DNA of 64,000 nucleotides from Planomonospora sp. ID67723 (GTDB taxonomy: Bacteria > Actinomycetota > Actinomycetes > Streptosporangiales > Streptosporangiaceae). A model generated the notes under the pieces. That model searched no databases, was not told the DNA's origin, and saw nothing but the letters and a program-made list of their open reading frames with translations. The DNA is taken from NCBI RefSeq assembly GCF_015711605.1, contig NZ_JABTEZ010000002.1, positions 682,001 through 746,000 of the forward strand, read 5' to 3'. Below are positions 45,294-54,933 of the stretch, piece after piece. Within the stretch, counting starts at the first letter, position 1; each line of letters opens with the position of its first letter. A program made the position numbers and the translations under genes.

Positions 45294-47525
45294 TTACCCG
45301 CTCAGCGCGATGTCATGGGGGCGGATCGGCACCCGGGGCAGCTCCAGCCCGGTCGCGGCCCGTACGGCGGCCGCCACCGCCGGGGTGGACGACAGCGTGG
45401 GCGGCTCGCCCGCGCCGCGCAGGCCGTACGGCGCGTGCGGGTCGGGGTTCTCCAGGATCGAGACCTTCATCGGAGGCATGTCCAGGACGGTCGGGATGAG
45501 GTAGTCGGTGAACGACGGGTTGCGCACCCTGCCGCCGGAGACCAGGACCTCCTCCATCAGCGCCAGCCCCAGCCCCTGGGCGGATCCGCCGTGGATCTGC
45601 CCCTCCAGCGCGACCGGGTTCAGGATCTTCCCGACGTCCTGCACCGCCGCCAGCTCCACCACCTTGACCAGGCCGAGCTCGGTGTCCACGTCCACCACCG
45701 CCCGGTGCACGCACAGCGCGAGCTGGGTGTGCGAGTCGCCCTGCCCGGTCACCGGGTCCATCGGGAAGGTCGGCCGGTGACGGTAGACCCGTGTCTCCTC
45801 GACCGGACCGGTGCGTTCCAGGACCTCGGCCAGAGTGGACCCGTCGGCCCGCAGCTTGTCCAGCCGCTCCCGTACGGCCTCGCACGCGGCCCGGACCGCG
45901 CCGCCGGTGACGTACGACTGCCGGGAGGCGGAGGAGGAGCCCGCCGAGCCGACCGCGGTGTCGGCCGCGGCGACCGTCACCCGCTCCACGCCCAGCTCGG
46001 TCCGGGCGATCTGCTCCTGGATCGTCACCAGTCCCTGTCCGACCTCGGCCGCCGCGGTGTGCACGAGCACGTGCGGCTCGTCGCCGAGCAGCTCCACCCG
46101 GACCCGGGCGGTGGAGTAGTCGTCGAAGCCCTCGGAGAAGCAGATGTTCTTGATGCCCACGCCGTATCCGACGCCGCGCCGCACCCCTTCGCCGTGGGTG
46201 GTCTGGGAGACGCCGCCGGGCATGTCCAGCAGGTCGTCCCCGGCCTCGGCGGGCAGCGGCATCGCGGCGAGCTCGCGGAGCATGGCCGCCAGCGGGGCGG
46301 GAGAGTCGATCACCTGTCCGGTGGCCAGCCGCGATCCCTGGGAGACGGCGTTGCGGACCCTGATCTCGACCGGGTCCAGGCCGCACGCCTCGGCCAGCCT
46401 GTCCATCTGAGACTCGTAGGCGAAGCAGGCCTGTACCGCGCCGAAGCCGCGCATCGCGCCGCAGGGCGGATTGTTGGTGTAGACGCCGTAGGCGTCGATG
46501 CGGATGTTGTCCACCTCGTACGGCCCCACCCCGAGCGAGGCGGCGTTGCCGACCACGGCGGGGGAGGAGGAGCAGTAGGCGCCGCCGTCCAGCAGGATCT
46601 CCGCCTTGACGTAGAGCAGCCTCCCCTCGCGCGTCGCGCCGTGCTCGTAGCGCATCCGGGCCGGGTGCCGGTGCACGTGCCCGAAGAACGACTCCTCCCG
46701 GCCGTATACGATCTTCACGGGCCGGCCGGTGCGCAGCGCCAGCATGCAGGCGTGGACCTGCATGGACAGGTCCTCGCGGGCGCCGAACGCGCCGCCCACC
46801 CCGGCCAGCGTCAGCCGTACCTTCTCGGCGGGCAGCCCGAGGCACGGCGCGATCTGGTCGCGGTCCACGTGCAGCCACTGGGTGGCGACGAACAGGTCCA
46901 CCCCGCCGTCCTCGGCCGGTACGGCCAGGCCCGACTCCGGCCCGAGGAAGGCCTGGTCCTGCATGCCGACCTCGTACTCCCCGGTGACCACGACGGGGGC
47001 GGTGAAGTCCGTGAGGTCGCGGCCCACCCGGACCGGCTGGTGGCGCAGCACGTTGCCGCCCGGCTGTCCCGCGTGGACCACCGGGCAGTCCGGGTCGAAG
47101 GCGGCCCGGCGCGGGTCGGTCACCGCCTCGCGGACCTCGTACTCCACCACGATCGCCTGCGCCGCCCTGCGCGCCCGCTCGGGATGGTCGGCGGCGACCA
47201 GCGCGACCGGCTCGCCCTGGTAGCGGACCTGGTCGACGGCGAGCACGGGCTGGTCCCGGCGCTCCAGACCGTAGAACTTCTCGCCCGGCACGTCCTCGTG
47301 GGTGAGCACGGCGAACACGCCCGGCATCGCCAGCGCGGGCCCGATGTCGATCGAGCGGATCCACGCCGACGGGTGCGGGCTGCGCAGGGTCACGCCCCAG
47401 ATCATGTCGGCGAGGTACAGGTCGGAGGAGTAGGCGAACTCGCCCGTCACCTTCAGCGTCCCGTCGGGACGGGGTGCGCTCTCCCCGACGCCCCGGCTGC
47501 TCTGCCGTGTCTCGATGCCACTCAT
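45294..47525 (-). CDS. Xanthine dehydrogenase family molybdopterin-binding subunit
   Basis: 743 residues from the ATG at 47525 (an in-frame ATG at 47561 is possible; neither has a clear ribosome site). Molybdopterin domain blocks: GVGGAFGARED, AMRGFGAVQACFAYESQMD, EVGQGLVTIQEQIA, and GLRGAGEPP with the active-site Glu. It hydroxylates xanthine or a related heterocycle. The FAD and 2Fe-2S partners normally encoded next to it are absent; directly upstream is a regulator pseudogene, in the same frame. Either partners lie elsewhere or the operon was cut. Confidence 0.92.
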   Translation of the reverse strand: MSGIETRQSSRGVGESAPRPDGTLKVTGEFAYSSDLYLADMIWGVTLRSPHPSAWIRSIDIGPALAMPGVFAVLTHEDVPGEKFYGLERRDQPVLAVDQVRYQGEPVALVAADHPERARRAAQAIVVEYEVREAVTDPRRAAFDPDCPVVHAGQPGGNVLRHQPVRVGRDLTDFTAPVVVTGEYEVGMQDQAFLGPESGLAVPAEDGGVDLFVATQWLHVDRDQIAPCLGLPAEKVRLTLAGVGGAFGAREDLSMQVHACMLALRTGRPVKIVYGREESFFGHVHRHPARMRYEHGATREGRLLYVKAEILLDGGAYCSSSPAVVGNAASLGVGPYEVDNIRIDAYGVYTNNPPCGAMRGFGAVQACFAYESQMDRLAEACGLDPVEIRVRNAVSQGSRLATGQVIDSPAPLAAMLRELAAMPLPAEAGDDLLDMPGGVSQTTHGEGVRRGVGYGVGIKNICFSEGFDDYSTARVRVELLGDEPHVLVHTAAAEVGQGLVTIQEQIARTELGVERVTVAAADTAVGSAGSSSASRQSYVTGGAVRAACEAVRERLDKLRADGSTLAEVLERTGPVEETRVYRHRPTFPMDPVTGQGDSHTQLALCVHRAVVDVDTELGLVKVVELAAVQDVGKILNPVALEGQIHGGSAQGLGLALMEEVLVSGGRVRNPSFTDYLIPTVLDMPPMKVSILENPDPHAPYGLRGAGEPPTLSSTPAVAAAVRAATGLELPRVPIRPHDIALSG

Positions 47526-47689
47526 CACAGCAGTACACCAAGACGGTCGGGGAGCCGCCATGGCACACACCGCGGAACAGGGGGCCCGGCCGTTGGCGAC
47601 TGTTGCGCTCGCCCGGCGGGACGGTGCCGCCGCCGGGCCTACGGAGCCGCGACCGGCGCGCGCCCGGAGCGGATCCCTCAGCGGATCCC

Positions 47690-48160
47690 TACAGGGGATC
47701 ACCGCTTCGTAGTCCCGCAGGTGTTCGAACGCTATGGCATCCACATGTTCCGGCAGGATCCGCAGCGTGCAGGCGCCGGGTCCGATGACCAGGACCTTCG
47801 AAGGGCTGCGGGGATTCCGGTCAGGGTCAAGCGTTCGTCTCCGCTTTGACACGTACGTGTAGACACTCTGCGCTGCGGTTTTGGGGAGTCTTCATCCCCG
47901 ATCCCATCGATGAGCCGTTCTTTGGTCACCACCTGTCCGGCATGGAGTGCCAGAATGCAGAGAACCGTCTGCTTCCGGGGCTCCCCTAGGTCGAGTTCTT
48001 GCGAGCGGTTCCATGCGGCCACGGGGCCCAGAATATTTATGCGGGGGCCTCGCGGCCGAGGCTCACCGCTCACGGCGGCGGTATCCGTACGCTCAATCAA
48101 CGAAGCCTCCGCATGCGGTCGGATATTGCGCAGCGAGATTGCAGGAGCCGAGTTTGCCAC
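47690..48160 (-). pseudogene. SARP/AfsR-type regulator N-terminal remnant
   Basis: The minus-strand frame begins INILGPVAAWNRSQELDLG, then KQTVLCILALHAGQVVTKER, the OmpR-like DNA-binding domain of SARP activators. At CCCCAAAACC (about 47870) one base is missing. In the next frame it continues TAAQSVYTYVSKRRRTLDPD, VLVIGPGACTLRILPEHVDA and IAFEHL, as SARPs do at the start of the BTA domain. The remaining BTA and any ATPase regions are gone. Tandem 12-bp repeats (47668-47690) mark the left end. SARPs activate antibiotic clusters; none is visible here. Confidence 0.8.
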
Positions 48161-49392: not shown

Positions 49393-49447
49393 TGAAGCCC
49401 CTGCGAAGTGGTCTTGCGACAGATCAACTTCGCAGCGAGAGGCTTCA
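49393..49447. repeat. Large imperfect hairpin inside the IS left part
   Basis: Nested inverted repeats: TGAAGCC (49393-49399) pairs with GGCTTCA (49441-49447), and CTGCGAAGT (49401-49409) pairs with ACTTCGCAG (49427-49435), with further G-T-tolerant pairing inside. It ends 11 bp before the transposase start. Unusual for IS5-type elements; it might be the end of a second, nested mobile element. Confidence 0.6.
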
Positions 49448-49458
49448 CGTGCCGTCTA

Positions 49459-50279
49459 GTGTCACATACGCCGCCATCTTGGACATCAACCGAATCCACC
49501 GCCGCTTTCCTGGCAGGCGAACTCGCAGCTCACCGGAGTGGGACCGGCGCAGGCAGGGGGATGCGGGCGCTCGGGCCGTTCAAGCGGGCGGTGCTGGTGC
49601 TGCGCTGGTTCGTCGACGGCACCCGGCTCCGGCAGCTCGCCACCGACAACCGGATCGCCGCCGGCGCCGCCTACGCCCATCTGCACGAAGGGATCGACGC
49701 GCTCGCCGCCCCGTCCCCGGCCTTGCCCGCCGTGCTGGAGGAGGCCGGGGCCTCCGGTGTGACGCATCTGAATCTGGGCGGTGCGGTGGTGCGCACCGGC
49801 CGGGTGAGCACTCCCGGCCCCAACGGCGCGGACCCGTGGTGGAGCGGCAAGCACAAGCATCACGGCGAAGACATCCAGGGCCTGTCCGCTCCGGACGGCT
49901 GGCGGCTGCGGATCTCGCAGGTGTGGCCCGGCCGCGAACACGACACCGCGTGCGCCAAGGCCGCCACGGAACCGCTGCCCGCGCCGCAGGCCCCGGACGC
50001 CGATTCGGGCCTGCTCACTCTCACCGACCTGGGTTACGAGAACCTCGATCCGGCCCCGCGCCGCCCGGTCGAGAAGCCCAAGCGTGGCGAGCTCACCGAC
50101 GATCAGCGTGCCTTCGACCAGGTCGTCCGCGGCATCCACGCCGTCGCGAACGGGCTGACTCCCCGCTCAAGACCACCTTCAAGGCCATGGGACGCGTCAC
50201 GCCCGGCCCCTGGCGTATCGGTGCGATCGTCAAGGGCGCCCATGTCCTGCTCCGTCTCGAACACGGCCGCCACGCCTGA
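49459..50279 (+). pseudogene. IS5-family transposase, frameshifted
   Basis: The DDE_Tnp_4-type transposase begins at the GTG 49459. MRALGPFKRAVLVLRWFVDG and YAHLHEGIDALAA are typical of IS112-like proteins. HLNLGGAVVRTGR holds the usual first-Asp position, but the Asp itself appears replaced (D to N/G), and KHKHHGEDIQGL and LTDLGYENL follow. Near 50148 one base is missing: the expected HAVAERA-type helix and the ending LKTTFKAMGRVTPGPWRIGA are in the next frame. The damage suggests an inactive element. Confidence 0.82.
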
Positions 50280-50508
50280 CCGAAGATCACAGGCCGTCGT
50301 GATCCGTCACCCGGAAAGGCTCAATGCGGAGAATTGAATTTATAGAGAGATACAAGGAATTCGGATGGCTCGTTGCGGCGTGTCCGTATTTTCTATCACG
50401 TGTTCGCTGCGGCGATCTTTGTCATTCTGTAAGCTATAATCCCAATCCCTCTTGGACCGCCATCGATCCGCTCGAGATTGATGTGGTGGGCGGCCGGCGA
50501 AAATAAAC

Positions 50509-50668: not shown

Positions 50669-50818
50669 CTAGCCTGGGTGGTTCCAGCCGAACGAGTGCT
50701 GGACGGTAGCGGGCTCAGGGGCAGACGAATCGGCACTGGCGGTCGTAGCATGGCCTACGGCGGCCGCTGCGGCCGTGAAAACGACCGCGAGGGCAGACAA
50801 GGCAAGACGTCGGCGCAC
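50669..50818 (-). CDS. Short secreted peptide precursor (candidate signalling peptide)
   Basis: 49 residues from the GTG at 50818, placed 6 nt after CAGGAG. A Sec-type signal (RRRLALSALAVVFTAAAAAV) ends near HATTASA, leaving about 20 residues, SSAPEPATVQHSFGWNHPG, with a distinct aromatic/charged C-terminus. The gene faces an XRE-TPR regulator with only 54 bp between the two starts. This arrangement, a short exported pro-peptide beside a TPR-containing regulator, matches RRNPP-type peptide pheromone systems. Too small for most gene callers. Function inferred from context only. Confidence 0.7.
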   Translation of the reverse strand: MRRRLALSALAVVFTAAAAAVGHATTASADSSAPEPATVQHSFGWNHPG

Positions 50819-50872
50819 GGGAGACTCCTGTCGTGGGTTCTGCTGCTTATCTAACATCTTTCAAGGGGTAAC

Positions 50873-52165
50873 GTGACCGGTCAAGACTTGGTGGGGCAGC
50901 GCATTAAGGCTGTCCGGCGTCAACGTGGTCTCTCGCAGGCTCAACTCGCTCATCCCGAACTGTCGGATAGTTACGTCTCTCTAATCGAGAGTGGAAAGCG
51001 TACCCCGACGCCCGCGGTCCTGGAACTGCTCGCGCGGAAGCTCGACTGCTCCCTCACCTATCTGCTCAACGGGGTGACGTCCGAGCAGATGCAGGAGATA
51101 GAGAACGGCATGAGCTACGCTCGGCTGGCCTTGGACAACGGCGAGGTGGCCGAGGCCCGCACGCGCTATGCCGAGCTTCTCGCCGGCGGTGACCTAGCCG
51201 GCCTGCCCCAGCTCAAGCAGGAAGTCGAATACGGCCTGGCGCTGGCGGCCGAGGCCTGCGGCGACCTCGCGGAGGCGATTGAACTCCTCAACAAACTCCG
51301 GCAGAATGCCGCTGCCGGTATGACTCCTGAACGTCATGTCGATGTCGCGGTCGCGCTCTCACGGTGCTATAGAGAGAAGAGGGACCTGGGACAGGCGGTC
51401 CAAGTGGCCGAACAGATCCTCGCAGGGGCGGTGCGGCCCGTCTGGACCGACGGCTTGATCAATCTGGGGGCCCAGCTTTGCGCGGCCTACATCGATCGCG
51501 GGGACCTGCTGCGGGCCCGGCAGTTCTCCTCCGAACTCATCGCGGCGGCCGAGCTTCTCGGCACCCCGGCATCTCTCTCACTGGTGTACTGGGGAGCCGC
51601 GATCCTCGCCATGGAGACGGGTCGCAGCGAAGCGGCGATCACTTATGTCGAGCGAGCCATGGCCATCCAGTCCGAGCACGGCGATCCCCGCCGCCTTGCC
51701 CGCCTCCGTGGAGACTACGCGCAGATCATGCTGGCCGCGCAGCCCGCGAAGGCCGAGGACTGGCGTGACCTCCTGGTGAAAACCGAGAAAGAGCTGGCGG
51801 AGAGCGCCGCCAACCCGATGGACAAGATGCGCTGTGCGATGAACCTCGCGCGTGCCGAGCTCCTGATCGGCTCACCCCAGCGGGCCGAGGTGCACATCCG
51901 GGCAGTTTGCACCATGCTCGACGAAATGCCGAAGGACCTTCAGGCGGACGCCCATCTGGTGGCGGGCCAGGCTTTTGCCGAACTGGGCGAGCGGGGGGAG
52001 GCCGAGCGAGAGCTGAGGGCCACGCTCGAAGTGCTGGAACCGATGCCGGTCACCAGGCCCATCGCCCAGTCCTGGCTGACCGCCGCGCAGCTTCTGGAGC
52101 GGATCGACGAGCCCGAGCGCAGCGTGGACGCCTACCACCGGGCGCTGGCCTGCGTCGGCCTGTAG
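50873..52165 (+). CDS. XRE-family regulator with TPR repeats (RRNPP-like)
   Basis: 430 residues. The helix-turn-helix spans about residues 8-63 (GQRIKAVRRQRGLSQAQLAH, SYVSLIESGKRTP). From about residue 75 to the end there are repeated helical pairs typical of TPR (ARLALDNGEVAEARTRYAEL, AEACGDLAEAIELLNKL, AQAFAELGERGEAERELRAT-like blocks). The domain order is that of Rgg/PlcR/PrgX-type peptide-sensing regulators. AAGGGG lies 5 nt before the GTG. The divergent 49-residue secreted peptide gene is the likely ligand source. A function in activating the peptide promoter is inferred. Confidence 0.9.
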   Translation: MTGQDLVGQRIKAVRRQRGLSQAQLAHPELSDSYVSLIESGKRTPTPAVLELLARKLDCSLTYLLNGVTSEQMQEIENGMSYARLALDNGEVAEARTRYAELLAGGDLAGLPQLKQEVEYGLALAAEACGDLAEAIELLNKLRQNAAAGMTPERHVDVAVALSRCYREKRDLGQAVQVAEQILAGAVRPVWTDGLINLGAQLCAAYIDRGDLLRARQFSSELIAAAELLGTPASLSLVYWGAAILAMETGRSEAAITYVERAMAIQSEHGDPRRLARLRGDYAQIMLAAQPAKAEDWRDLLVKTEKELAESAANPMDKMRCAMNLARAELLIGSPQRAEVHIRAVCTMLDEMPKDLQADAHLVAGQAFAELGERGEAERELRATLEVLEPMPVTRPIAQSWLTAAQLLERIDEPERSVDAYHRALACVGL

Positions 52166-52228: not shown

Positions 52229-52825
52229 ATGAAGACTTCCCCTTTCGCGGCCGCTTTCGTGCTGCTCGCCGCCCTCGTCCTCGGTACGGCCTCCGCCTCG
52301 CCGGCCTTCGCTCACGACACGCTCAAGAGCAGCGACCCCGCCAAGGGCGAGAAGGTCGAGAGCCTGGAGGAGGTGAAGCTGACGTTCACCGCCTCGGTGC
52401 GCTTCCCCAGGGTGGTCGTGCGCGCCGGGGACGGCACGCCGTACCAGGAGGGCAAGGCGGCTGCGGACGGCCACGTGGTGACCCAGAAGGTCACGCCGGA
52501 CCTCCCCCCGGGCAAGTACGTCATCGCCTACCGGGTGGTCTCCTCCGACGGCCACCCGATCGAGGGGGAGATCCCCTTCACCATGGCCGGGGACGCGCCG
52601 CCGAGCGCCGCACCGGCCGAGAGCGGGAGCCCGGCGCAGACCGCCGCGCCGGAGGCGTCCGGGACGGCCGCCCCCTCGGCTGCGGCGTCGATCACCCCGG
52701 CCCCGGCGGCGAGCGCGGAGGACACCGGCGGCGGGGTGCCCGGCTGGGCCTGGCTCGCCGTCGGCGGCCTGACCGGTGTGGGCATCGGGATGTTCTTCAG
52801 CATGCGCAACAAGAAGCAGCCGTGA
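52229..52825 (+). CDS. CopC-domain copper-binding protein
   Basis: 198 residues. The signal peptide is cleaved after AFA, exposing His29 as the mature N-terminus (HDTLKSSDPAKGEKV), the known copper(II) ligand of CopC. A beta-sandwich follows with a second ligand in SSDGHPIEGE. A Pro/Ala/Ser-rich linker leads to a C-terminal membrane helix (WAWLAVGGLTGVGIGMFF). It is coupled (GTGA overlap) to a CopD-CtaG fusion, so the pair handles copper import for cytochrome oxidase assembly. Confidence 0.93.
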   Translation: MKTSPFAAAFVLLAALVLGTASASPAFAHDTLKSSDPAKGEKVESLEEVKLTFTASVRFPRVVVRAGDGTPYQEGKAAADGHVVTQKVTPDLPPGKYVIAYRVVSSDGHPIEGEIPFTMAGDAPPSAAPAESGSPAQTAAPEASGTAAPSAAASITPAPAASAEDTGGGVPGWAWLAVGGLTGVGIGMFFSMRNKKQP

Positions 52826-54933
52826 GCGCCGCGGGGAAGGGCAGGGGCAACCCGGCGTCCGGGTCCGGGAAGGGCAGGGGCAACCCGGCGGTCGGGCCCG
52901 AGGGCGGGAACGGCCCGGCGGCCGGGCCCTCCCGGGAGGGGACCGGCCGGACCGTGCGGCTGGCGCTGGCCGGCGCCGGCGCCGCCGTCGCCGCCCTGGT
53001 GATCGCGATGGTCGTGACCGGCGCCGCGACCCCCCGCGTCATCCCCGGGCTGTCCGACGAGGGCGCGCTCACCCGGTGGGGCCTGCCGCTGTCCAAGCTC
53101 ACCATGGACGCGGCGGGTGTGCTCACCGTGGGCGCGCTGCTAGCCGCCGCGGTCTTCTTCCCCAGTGACAAGGGCCTGCTCGGCAAGACCGCCCTGACCT
53201 ACATCAGGGCCGCCTCCTGGCTCGCGCTCGTCTGGGCGGGCGCCGCGGTGGCCACGATGGTCTTCAGCCTGTCGGACGCGCTGGGCCTGCCCGTCACCGA
53301 CGTGCTCGGCGGCGACGAGCTGACCAGCTTCGCCAGCCAGGTCTCCCAGGGCATCGCGCTCACTCTGGTCGTGCTGTTCTCACTGGCCCTCGCGCTGTTC
53401 GCCCGTGGGGCGATCACCGCCGGGGCGGCGGGCGGCCTGCTCGTGCTCGCCCTGGCGACCCTGCTCCCGCCCGCGCTGACCGGCCACTCGGCCTCCTCAC
53501 CCAACCACGATCTGGCCACCACCGGCGTCGCCGTGCATCTGGTGGTCCTCGCGCTCTGGGTGGGCGGGCTCGCGGTGCTCTGCGCCCACGCGCTACGCGG
53601 GCAGGCGCAGCTGGAGGTCGCCGCCGCCCGGTTCTCCTCGATGGCGCTGTGGTGCTTCACCGGTGTCGGGCTGTCGGGCCTGTTCAGCGTGGTGGCCCGG
53701 CTGACCTCGCTCTCCGAGCTGTTCACCTCCGCGTACGGCCTGCTGCTGCTGGCCAAGACGGCGGCGTTCGCGCTGCTCGGCGCCGCCGGTTGGTGGCACA
53801 GGAGGCGCACCCTGCCCGGGCTCGCCTCGGGCCGGCCCGGCGTGTTCGTACGCTTCGCCTCCGGTGAGGTCCTGGTCATGTTCGCGGCCGTCGGGTTGGC
53901 CGTCGCGCTCTCACGCACCGCCCCGCCCCCTGCGGTCCTCCCGGTCGACCGGGCCTTCGAGGTGCTCGGCTACTCCATGCCGCCGGAGATCTCCCTGGCG
54001 AACCTGGTCACCCTGTGGTGGTTCGACCTGTTCTCCGGCACGCTGGTCGCCCTGCTCGCAGGTCTCTACCTCGCCGGTGTGCTGCGGCTCGCCAGGCGGG
54101 GCGACCCCTGGCCGTGGGGCCGTACCGCCGCGTGGTTCATCGGCGTGCTGGTCCTGCTCGTCGCCACCCAGAGCGGCGTCGCCCGCTACGCCAAGGTGCT
54201 GTTCAGCGTGCACATGGCCGAGCACATGACGCTGTCCATGCTGGTCCCGATCTTCCTGGTGCTCGGTGCTCCCGTCACCCTGGCCCTGCGCGCGCTCAAG
54301 CCGGCCGCCCGCCGCGGCGACCGGGGTCCCCGCGAGTGGCTGACCGCGATCCTGCACAGCCGGTTCGTGCGCTTCGTCGGCCACCCGGCGATCGCCACCG
54401 CCGTCTTCATCGTCTCCACCTACGCCCTGTACTTCACCTCGCTGTTCGCCTCCGCGATGGAGGAGCACCTGGGGCACATCGCGATGACGGCGCACTTCCT
54501 GGTCAGCGGGTGCCTGTTCTTCTGGGTGATCATCGGGGTGGACCCGGCGCCCCACCGGCTCCCGCACGTGGCGCGGCTGATCCTGTTGTTCGTCACCATG
54601 CCCTTCCACGCGTTCTTCGGCATCGCACTGATGAACATGGGCACCGTGCTCGCCGCCGACTGGTACGACCAGCTCGGCCGCACCTGGGGCGCCTCCCCCC
54701 TCGCCGACCAGCGGGACGGCGGAGCCATCGCCTGGGGCTTCGGGGAGATCCCGACCCTGATCGTGCTGATCGCGCTCGCCCTGCAGTGGTGGCGTGACGA
54801 CGAGCGCAGGGCCCGGCGGGCCGACCGCCGGGCCGACGCCGCCGCGGCGCGCACCGGTGGCAGCGGCGACGCCGAGCTCGACGCCTACAACGACTACCTC
54901 GCTAGACTCGACAAGCGGAATAGCAGGGAGTAG
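52822..54933 (+). CDS. CopD-CtaG fusion, copper transport/cytochrome oxidase assembly protein
   Basis: 703 residues, many membrane helices. After a Gly/Asn/Pro-rich N-terminus, the first half is CopD-like (PALTGHSASSPNHDLATTG, VHLVVLALWVGGLAVLC with exposed His). The second half is a caa3-type CtaG (YAKVLFSVHMAEHMTLSMLV, FLVSGCLFFWVIIGVDPAPH, MPFHAFFGIALMNMG). Together they probably move copper to the periplasmic side for the CuB/CuA sites. The fused form is common in actinomycetes. The tail is charged. Confidence 0.94.
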   Translation: MSAAGKGRGNPASGSGKGRGNPAVGPEGGNGPAAGPSREGTGRTVRLALAGAGAAVAALVIAMVVTGAATPRVIPGLSDEGALTRWGLPLSKLTMDAAGVLTVGALLAAAVFFPSDKGLLGKTALTYIRAASWLALVWAGAAVATMVFSLSDALGLPVTDVLGGDELTSFASQVSQGIALTLVVLFSLALALFARGAITAGAAGGLLVLALATLLPPALTGHSASSPNHDLATTGVAVHLVVLALWVGGLAVLCAHALRGQAQLEVAAARFSSMALWCFTGVGLSGLFSVVARLTSLSELFTSAYGLLLLAKTAAFALLGAAGWWHRRRTLPGLASGRPGVFVRFASGEVLVMFAAVGLAVALSRTAPPPAVLPVDRAFEVLGYSMPPEISLANLVTLWWFDLFSGTLVALLAGLYLAGVLRLARRGDPWPWGRTAAWFIGVLVLLVATQSGVARYAKVLFSVHMAEHMTLSMLVPIFLVLGAPVTLALRALKPAARRGDRGPREWLTAILHSRFVRFVGHPAIATAVFIVSTYALYFTSLFASAMEEHLGHIAMTAHFLVSGCLFFWVIIGVDPAPHRLPHVARLILLFVTMPFHAFFGIALMNMGTVLAADWYDQLGRTWGASPLADQRDGGAIAWGFGEIPTLIVLIALALQWWRDDERRARRADRRADAAAARTGGSGDAELDAYNDYLARLDKRNSRE

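Follow-up and report, generated by a model that had tools for sequence, protein, structure and literature searches.

The soil bacterium Planomonospora sp. ID67723 carries a short propeptide gene and a divergent XRE-TPR regulator gene that probably form a propeptide-receptor system working like RRNPP quorum sensing, in which a dicysteine peptide end is the usual form and has been recoded in the clade of this strain. The pair lies within the window (the whole stretch of 64,000 nucleotides analysed). The original prediction from this DNA was right about the pair, yet understated it.

The propeptide gene and its divergent regulator gene

The propeptide gene occupies positions 50669..50818 of the minus strand and encodes 49 aa from a GTG codon, with the C-terminus ...VQHSFGWNHPG; its place was conserved in 79 of 80 relatives. 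Residues 1-29 (50732..50818, minus strand) read as a signal-type N-terminal part with a basic start, a hydrophobic core, and an A-S-A end. By the A-x-A rule, a putative cleavage site follows this end and would leave a predicted mature tail of 20 aa, DSSAPEPATVQHSFGWNHPG (50672..50731, minus strand), as the supposed source of the pheromone. The Sec-type features (basic start, hydrophobic core, and A-x-A) were assigned by sequence reading and a hydropathy rule, that is, by composition only; the N-terminal parts of the family set likewise showed a basic start, a hydrophobic core, and a mostly A-x-A-like end.

The list of open reading frames gives the minus-strand frame as 50669..50857, with 62 aa from an ATG. 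An internal GTG at 50816-50818, preceded by AGGAG, is the start of the 49-residue form, and the AGGAG ribosome site (50825..50829, read on the minus strand) has similar counterparts in relatives. The 62-aa form was set aside, and the GTG start preferred, because its position was constant: 79 of the 80 relatives had, 50-62 bp from the receptor start, a start codon that leads into basic residues, mostly behind a GGAG- or AGAG-like site. When searched against its own genome, the peptide gave a single match, its own gene. Neither the window peptide nor ten relatives matched a Pfam or NCBIfam family above cut-off, and a known peptide family was ruled out as the identity of these 11 peptides at the cut-offs of both collections.

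The receptor gene (50873..52165, plus strand) encodes 430 aa from a GTG start and is preceded by a ribosome-site-like AAGGGG at 50863..50868 of the same strand. The 54 bp between the two start codons (50819..50872) must, to judge from the arrangement, hold or overlap the predicted promoters of both genes. A 49-residue secreted-type peptide gene with a good ribosome site, lying 54 bp from a divergent XRE-TPR gene, was what had been described originally, and both the coordinates and the relatives agree with it.

Conservation of the pair in the Streptosporangiaceae

A scan of named genomes returned 446 receptor relatives, of which the best 80 were used, all from Streptosporangiaceae genera by the labels of the tree tool. 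In 79 of these best 80 of 446 loci, a divergent signal-type ORF was present with the two start codons 50-62 bp apart, and the single exception (L124, from Streptosporangium subroseum) was without a peptide. The absence of a conserved short ORF beside orthologues of the receptor would have refuted the original prediction; with the ORF present at 79 of 80 named loci, this check did not refute it. Beside the nearest XRE-TPR paralogues (L002 and L033-L052; 21 loci, one of them cut by a contig end), no signal-type ORF ending in CC was found, so the pairing is no general habit of XRE-TPR genes. Because the peptide gene was kept in 79 of 80 relatives and was absent beside the paralogue group, it is more than a product of chance. 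The paralogue group has a conserved ORF of its own: L002 and many of L033-L052 carry a frame of about 52 aa (VQVKK...) on the same strand, about 660 bp upstream.

No peptide was seen near eight further family orthologues (L155-L157, L201, L202, L206, L208, and L209), and none lay near four distant same-family homologues (L020, L021, L024, and L025). In a wider stretch, L025 showed a candidate 3.4 kb away from the start of its receptor, with CC close to the C-terminus; the wider stretches of L036, L186, L187, L188, and L195 yielded no peptide candidate.

Domains and structural model of the receptor

The receptor comprises an HTH domain (residues 11-64; 50903..51064, plus strand), recognized by Pfam as HTH_3 (1.3e-11), and a TPR superhelix (residues 70-427; 51080..52153, plus strand), delimited by the helices of the model and matched by TPR_12 (7.9e-9). 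The model was built from 87 aligned proteins and had a mean pLDDT of 92.2. A Foldseek search of 350,542 PDB chains gave PlcR in complex with PapR7 and DNA (3u3w) as the top match (E 1.3e-7), with 18% identity and modest TM scores of 0.40 by query and 0.59 by target. ComR was placed at rank 50, LGN and other TPR proteins stood between PlcR and ComR, and many eukaryotic TPR proteins scored close to PlcR. A profile search against PDB sequences placed PlcR fourth (E 1.7e-17), behind three engineered TPR proteins and as the first natural protein, with an alignment that spans the HTH and the first repeats. Matches in a viral structure library were generic TPR and HTH proteins.

A dicysteine end behind a fast-evolving tail

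A Cys-Cys-stop end was observed in 64 of the 79 family peptides and a different end in the other 15. Among control ORFs of 35-75 aa taken from the flanks of the same 80 loci, a CC end occurred in 2 of 2,242, and neither of the two reached the threshold applied there for a hydrophobic core. Rates of change were compared in 18 close pairs of equal length, picked from 56 possible pairs so that each sequence was used once. The receptor had a dN/dS of 0.205 over these pairs, compared with 0.60 in the signal part and 0.79 in the tail; the last two codons showed zero amino-acid changes over 94 non-synonymous sites. A coding gene whose tail varies while its end stays constant fits what would be expected of a pheromone gene and falls short of proof.

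For 56 distinct CC tails, tail distance was compared with the distance in the inner TPR helices after the outer helices and the DNA-binding domain had been taken out. The partial correlation was 0.177 (p 0.0005), a value that shared ancestry makes too generous; the corresponding correlation with the outer helices was weaker (0.059, p 0.054).

Loss of the dicysteine end and changes in the proposed groove

A receptor tree calculated by a quick method placed L124 and the 16 receptors whose peptides lack CC, that of the window included, in one clade with a support of 100, nested among receptors of CC peptides, and a single loss of CC would be the simple reading of this topology. A W-x-x-P-x end, seen in the window as WNHPG (50672..50686, minus strand), was common to 14 of the 16 CC-less peptides, the exceptions being L059 and L061 from Planomonospora. 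The conserved C-terminus for which the original prediction proposed a test is present in most of the clade of the window in the form W-x-x-P-x; Cys-Cys is commoner overall, and WNHPG is a derived exception.

Ten receptor columns were conserved elsewhere and altered in the CC-less clade. Eight of them (E197, T201, R233, V236, A237, N241, N274, and A281) are located on TPR helices 4A, 5A, and 6A, which we propose as the groove region (residues 197-281; 51461..51715, plus strand). In nine other clades, only 3 of 40 clade-specific columns fell on helices 4A-6A; a tenth set, which contains two of the nine, was left out of this count. The contrast of 8/10 with 3/40 gives a Fisher's p of 1.2e-5, uncorrected for the later choice of the helices and, like the other tests here, made too generous by shared ancestry.

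A five-residue pocket pattern (T/S/N201, A/S/G237, W240, N/E241, and N/S/A274), defined after the alignment had been seen, was complete in 97 of 108 CC-peptide receptors versus 9 of 56 others, counts to which the same caution about ancestry applies. The 56 comprised the CC-less clade (0/16), family receptors without a peptide (4/9), other receptors without one (4/6), and paralogues or distant homologues (1/25). Nine receptors without a found peptide nonetheless showed the complete pattern, and in the paralogue group it was complete in one of 21 (L036). Four receptors of family f99 had CC or near-CC peptides, yet only one of the five pocket residues. Within the CC-less clade, a peptide is missing from L124 alone, whose receptor stands on a long branch and has a degraded pocket, as if peptide and pocket were both being lost.

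Distribution beyond the family

In the order, 208 of 297 genomes gave a receptor match, paralogues included; in the class, 66 of 394 did so with an E value of at most 1e-40. Outside the family of the window, 54 matches were counted and 43 loci were examined. Among these, 35 of 43 had a hydrophobic short ORF at most 500 bp from the receptor with CC among its last eight residues, compared with 1 of 850 in a control placed more than 800 bp away. In four of the 35 (L193, L198, L199, and L200), CC was not at the very end. Twenty-seven of the ORFs were divergent, 8 convergent, and 1 co-directional, with two at L170; retention of the peptide despite changes of orientation speaks for a functional link. 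A convergent peptide was present also at L185 and L189, which the counting rule missed and which come on top of the 35. L183 had a candidate 3.1 kb from the receptor start, L171 offered an upstream sequence of 288 bp only, and near eight phylum-level homologues (L134-L141) no peptide was found.

Two further features of these loci were recorded. In addition to its divergent ORF, L170 has a further hydrophobic ORF with a CC end, located 175 bp downstream of the receptor. An EamA/DMT-type permease gene stood downstream of the receptor, mostly convergent, at L159, L160, and L165-L169 (family f21) and at L197/L226 and L199/L228 (family f99); EamA proteins are common, so this adjacency in two distant families may be due to chance.

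Genomic neighbourhood and mobility

Directly after the receptor gene lie copC and a copD/CtaG fusion (52229-54933). The copC-copD genes adjoined the receptor in 78 of the 80 family loci, with a gap of 36-250 bp (median 83), and the receptor may be cotranscribed with these copper genes. In other families, copC was not found around the receptors examined, many of whose downstream flanks were short, so that copper may be a family-specific target.

To the left of the pair is a remnant of a DDE_Tnp_4 transposase (49408-50337), for which no match at 1e-10 was obtained in the 80 relatives; the gene to the left of this remnant (45294-47852, with MoCoBD domains) was matched in 64 of 80. The position of the pair at the edge of this mobile scar had been read as consistent with transfer. 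A mobile origin was rejected: with the remnant unmatched in the relatives and the pair syntenic with copC-copD in 78 of 80, the pair is resident and the scar incidental. The transfer part of the original prediction is not supported; its RRNPP-type reading is consistent with PlcR as the first fold match, the adjacency of the genes, the signal-type propeptide, and the groove changes.

Receptor homologues were also met on plasmids. Of 14 Streptomyces records, the four plasmids looked at (L230-L233) contained the receptor, and no CC peptide was found in them. A plasmid of Streptosporangium sp. NBC_01495 (L235) carries a receptor homologue with 49% identity for which no peptide was detected; this may be an orphan receptor or one that eavesdrops. 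A record of Nonomuraea gerenzanensis listed as a plasmid had the CC peptide; at 11.85 Mb, it was taken for the chromosome. One unannotated record of a phage collection matched the receptor, and no peptide was present there. As had been noted from the window itself, no oligopeptide permease lies within it; 12 OppA-type (SBP_bac_5) genes occur in the genome, none of them within the window.

Proposed mechanism and alternative explanations

According to the mechanism that we propose, the 49-aa propeptide would be exported by Sec and then cut, and its C-terminal piece would accumulate outside the cell. The peptide would be re-imported via an oligopeptide permease, a step that the 12 OppA-type genes make possible only, and would bind the TPR-domain groove of the divergent HTH regulator with its C-terminus as the recognised end. 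Binding would alter transcription from the 54 bp that the two genes share, and probably that of other targets as well. At most of the actinomycete loci examined, residues on TPR helices 4A-6A would read the Cys-Cys end; in the clade of the window, the peptide end would have changed, mostly to W-x-x-P-x, and the reading residues would have changed too. The analysis itself showed a conserved pair with a signal-type propeptide, Cys-Cys and W-x-x-P-x ends, a tail that evolves quickly ahead of invariant last codons, a receptor model resembling RRNPP proteins, and clustered receptor changes in the clade without CC; export, cleavage, import, binding, a DNA target, the sensing of cell density, and the direction of regulation are inferred.

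The peptide might instead be a secreted effector that is never re-imported, for example a small antibacterial or a ligand in copper or redox chemistry, with the TPR protein controlling only the peptide gene. With two terminal cysteines, a peptide could coordinate metal or form a disulfide, and copC-copD follows the receptor at 36-250 bp in nearly all family loci; however, copC was not found beside the other-family receptors examined (many with short downstream flanks), and the altered inner TPR-helix residues of the clade without CC are unexplained if the peptide never meets the receptor. We consider this explanation unlikely. Ranked after it, and likewise improbable, is a small protein that stays with the cell that makes it, either unexported or held in the membrane, and binds the TPR regulator there, with no signalling between cells. 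Adjacency, a fixed C-terminus, and groove changes require binding and not export, but the N-terminal parts of the family set resemble Sec substrates (basic start, hydrophobic core, and mostly an A-x-A-like end), and a fast-evolving tail with a fixed end is typical of exported pheromones. A toxin-antitoxin-like pair, in which a small hydrophobic toxin would be restrained by the divergent HTH protein, accounts for a short hydrophobic ORF adjoining an XRE regulator; the hydrophilic tail with conserved C-terminal residues, the PlcR-like receptor, the stable synteny in 78 of 80 loci, and the lack of a toxin or defence family match for the peptide in Pfam and NCBIfam make it very improbable. That the ORF is a chance reading frame, as short frames abound in GC-rich DNA, can be dismissed in view of its same place in 79 of 80 relatives, the last two codons fixed over 18 pairs, and CC ends in only 2 of 2,242 control ORFs.

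The recurrence of the propeptide-receptor pair in many actinomycetes points to a peptide language of the kind known from Firmicutes. We put forward more tentatively, as something rather short of probable, that Actinomycetota share a class-wide communication by pheromones with a free Cys-Cys end, for which the TPR groove has a dedicated pocket. Since two adjacent cysteines are able to bind copper or to alternate between the disulfide and the dithiol form, a CC signal could report redox or metal state and join it to cell density; the clade of the window would then be a natural code change, in which end and pocket were rewritten together. If the proposed system is real across many actinomycete families, the Streptosporangiaceae included, cheap synthetic peptides could be tried as a means of switching development or silent gene clusters, and a clade that swapped CC for W-x-x-P-x along with groove residues would allow a direct test of how a pheromone code is rewritten.

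Comparison with known systems

The NsdA family of actinomycete regulators (NF053720) resembles the receptor in being TPR regulators, with a weak match at the last repeats (6.1e-7); with 29.3 bits against a cut-off of 75, the receptor is not a member. The XRE-TPR paralogues (L002 and L033-L052) have the same HTH-TPR architecture, a similar length, and about 30-44% identity in aligned parts, but differ from the receptor in having no signal-type CC peptide beside them and the complete pocket pattern in one of 21.

PapR of the Bacillus cereus group is a short exported propeptide encoded by the gene next to that of PlcR, and the pair described here is likewise adjacent. The two systems share a receptor of HTH and TPR, 3u3w being the best match among solved structures. 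They differ in that the present hosts are actinomycetes, the peptides mostly end in Cys-Cys, and the genes are usually divergent or convergent; the peptides have no sequence family in common.

RRNPP systems have been described in Firmicutes (PMC10075063, PMC9765709, PMC12700828), and signals of Actinomycetota are typically small molecules made by enzymes (PMC10075063). In the available text of PMC10075063 and PMC9765709, the surveys covered Firmicutes, so they do not speak against actinomycete systems. An RRNPP-type or CC-peptide system in actinomycetes was not found in the open PMC papers searched. The dicysteine end of the present peptides is absent from the RRNPP descriptions in the available text of PMC10075063, PMC9765709, and PMC12700828.

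The pair shares with RRNPP/RRNPPA systems (Rap, Rgg, NprR, PrgX, AimR, and ComR) a small propeptide, a TPR receptor of 250-500 aa, and direct neighbourhood (PMC10075063). The five-point signature given in the available text of that paper is a propeptide of 10-100 aa that is secreted by Sec, and a receptor of 250-500 aa with TPRs whose gene is adjacent at -60 to 400 bp (PMC10075063). Four of the five points were found outright: the propeptide has 49 aa here and 40-58 aa in the 79 relatives, the receptor has 430 aa, its TPRs were recognized both by TPR_12 (7.9e-9) and as a superhelix in the model, and the start-to-start gap is 54 bp; the fifth point, Sec secretion, is suggested by composition only. 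We term the pair RRNPP-like, short of a proven member, with PlcR as its first fold match.
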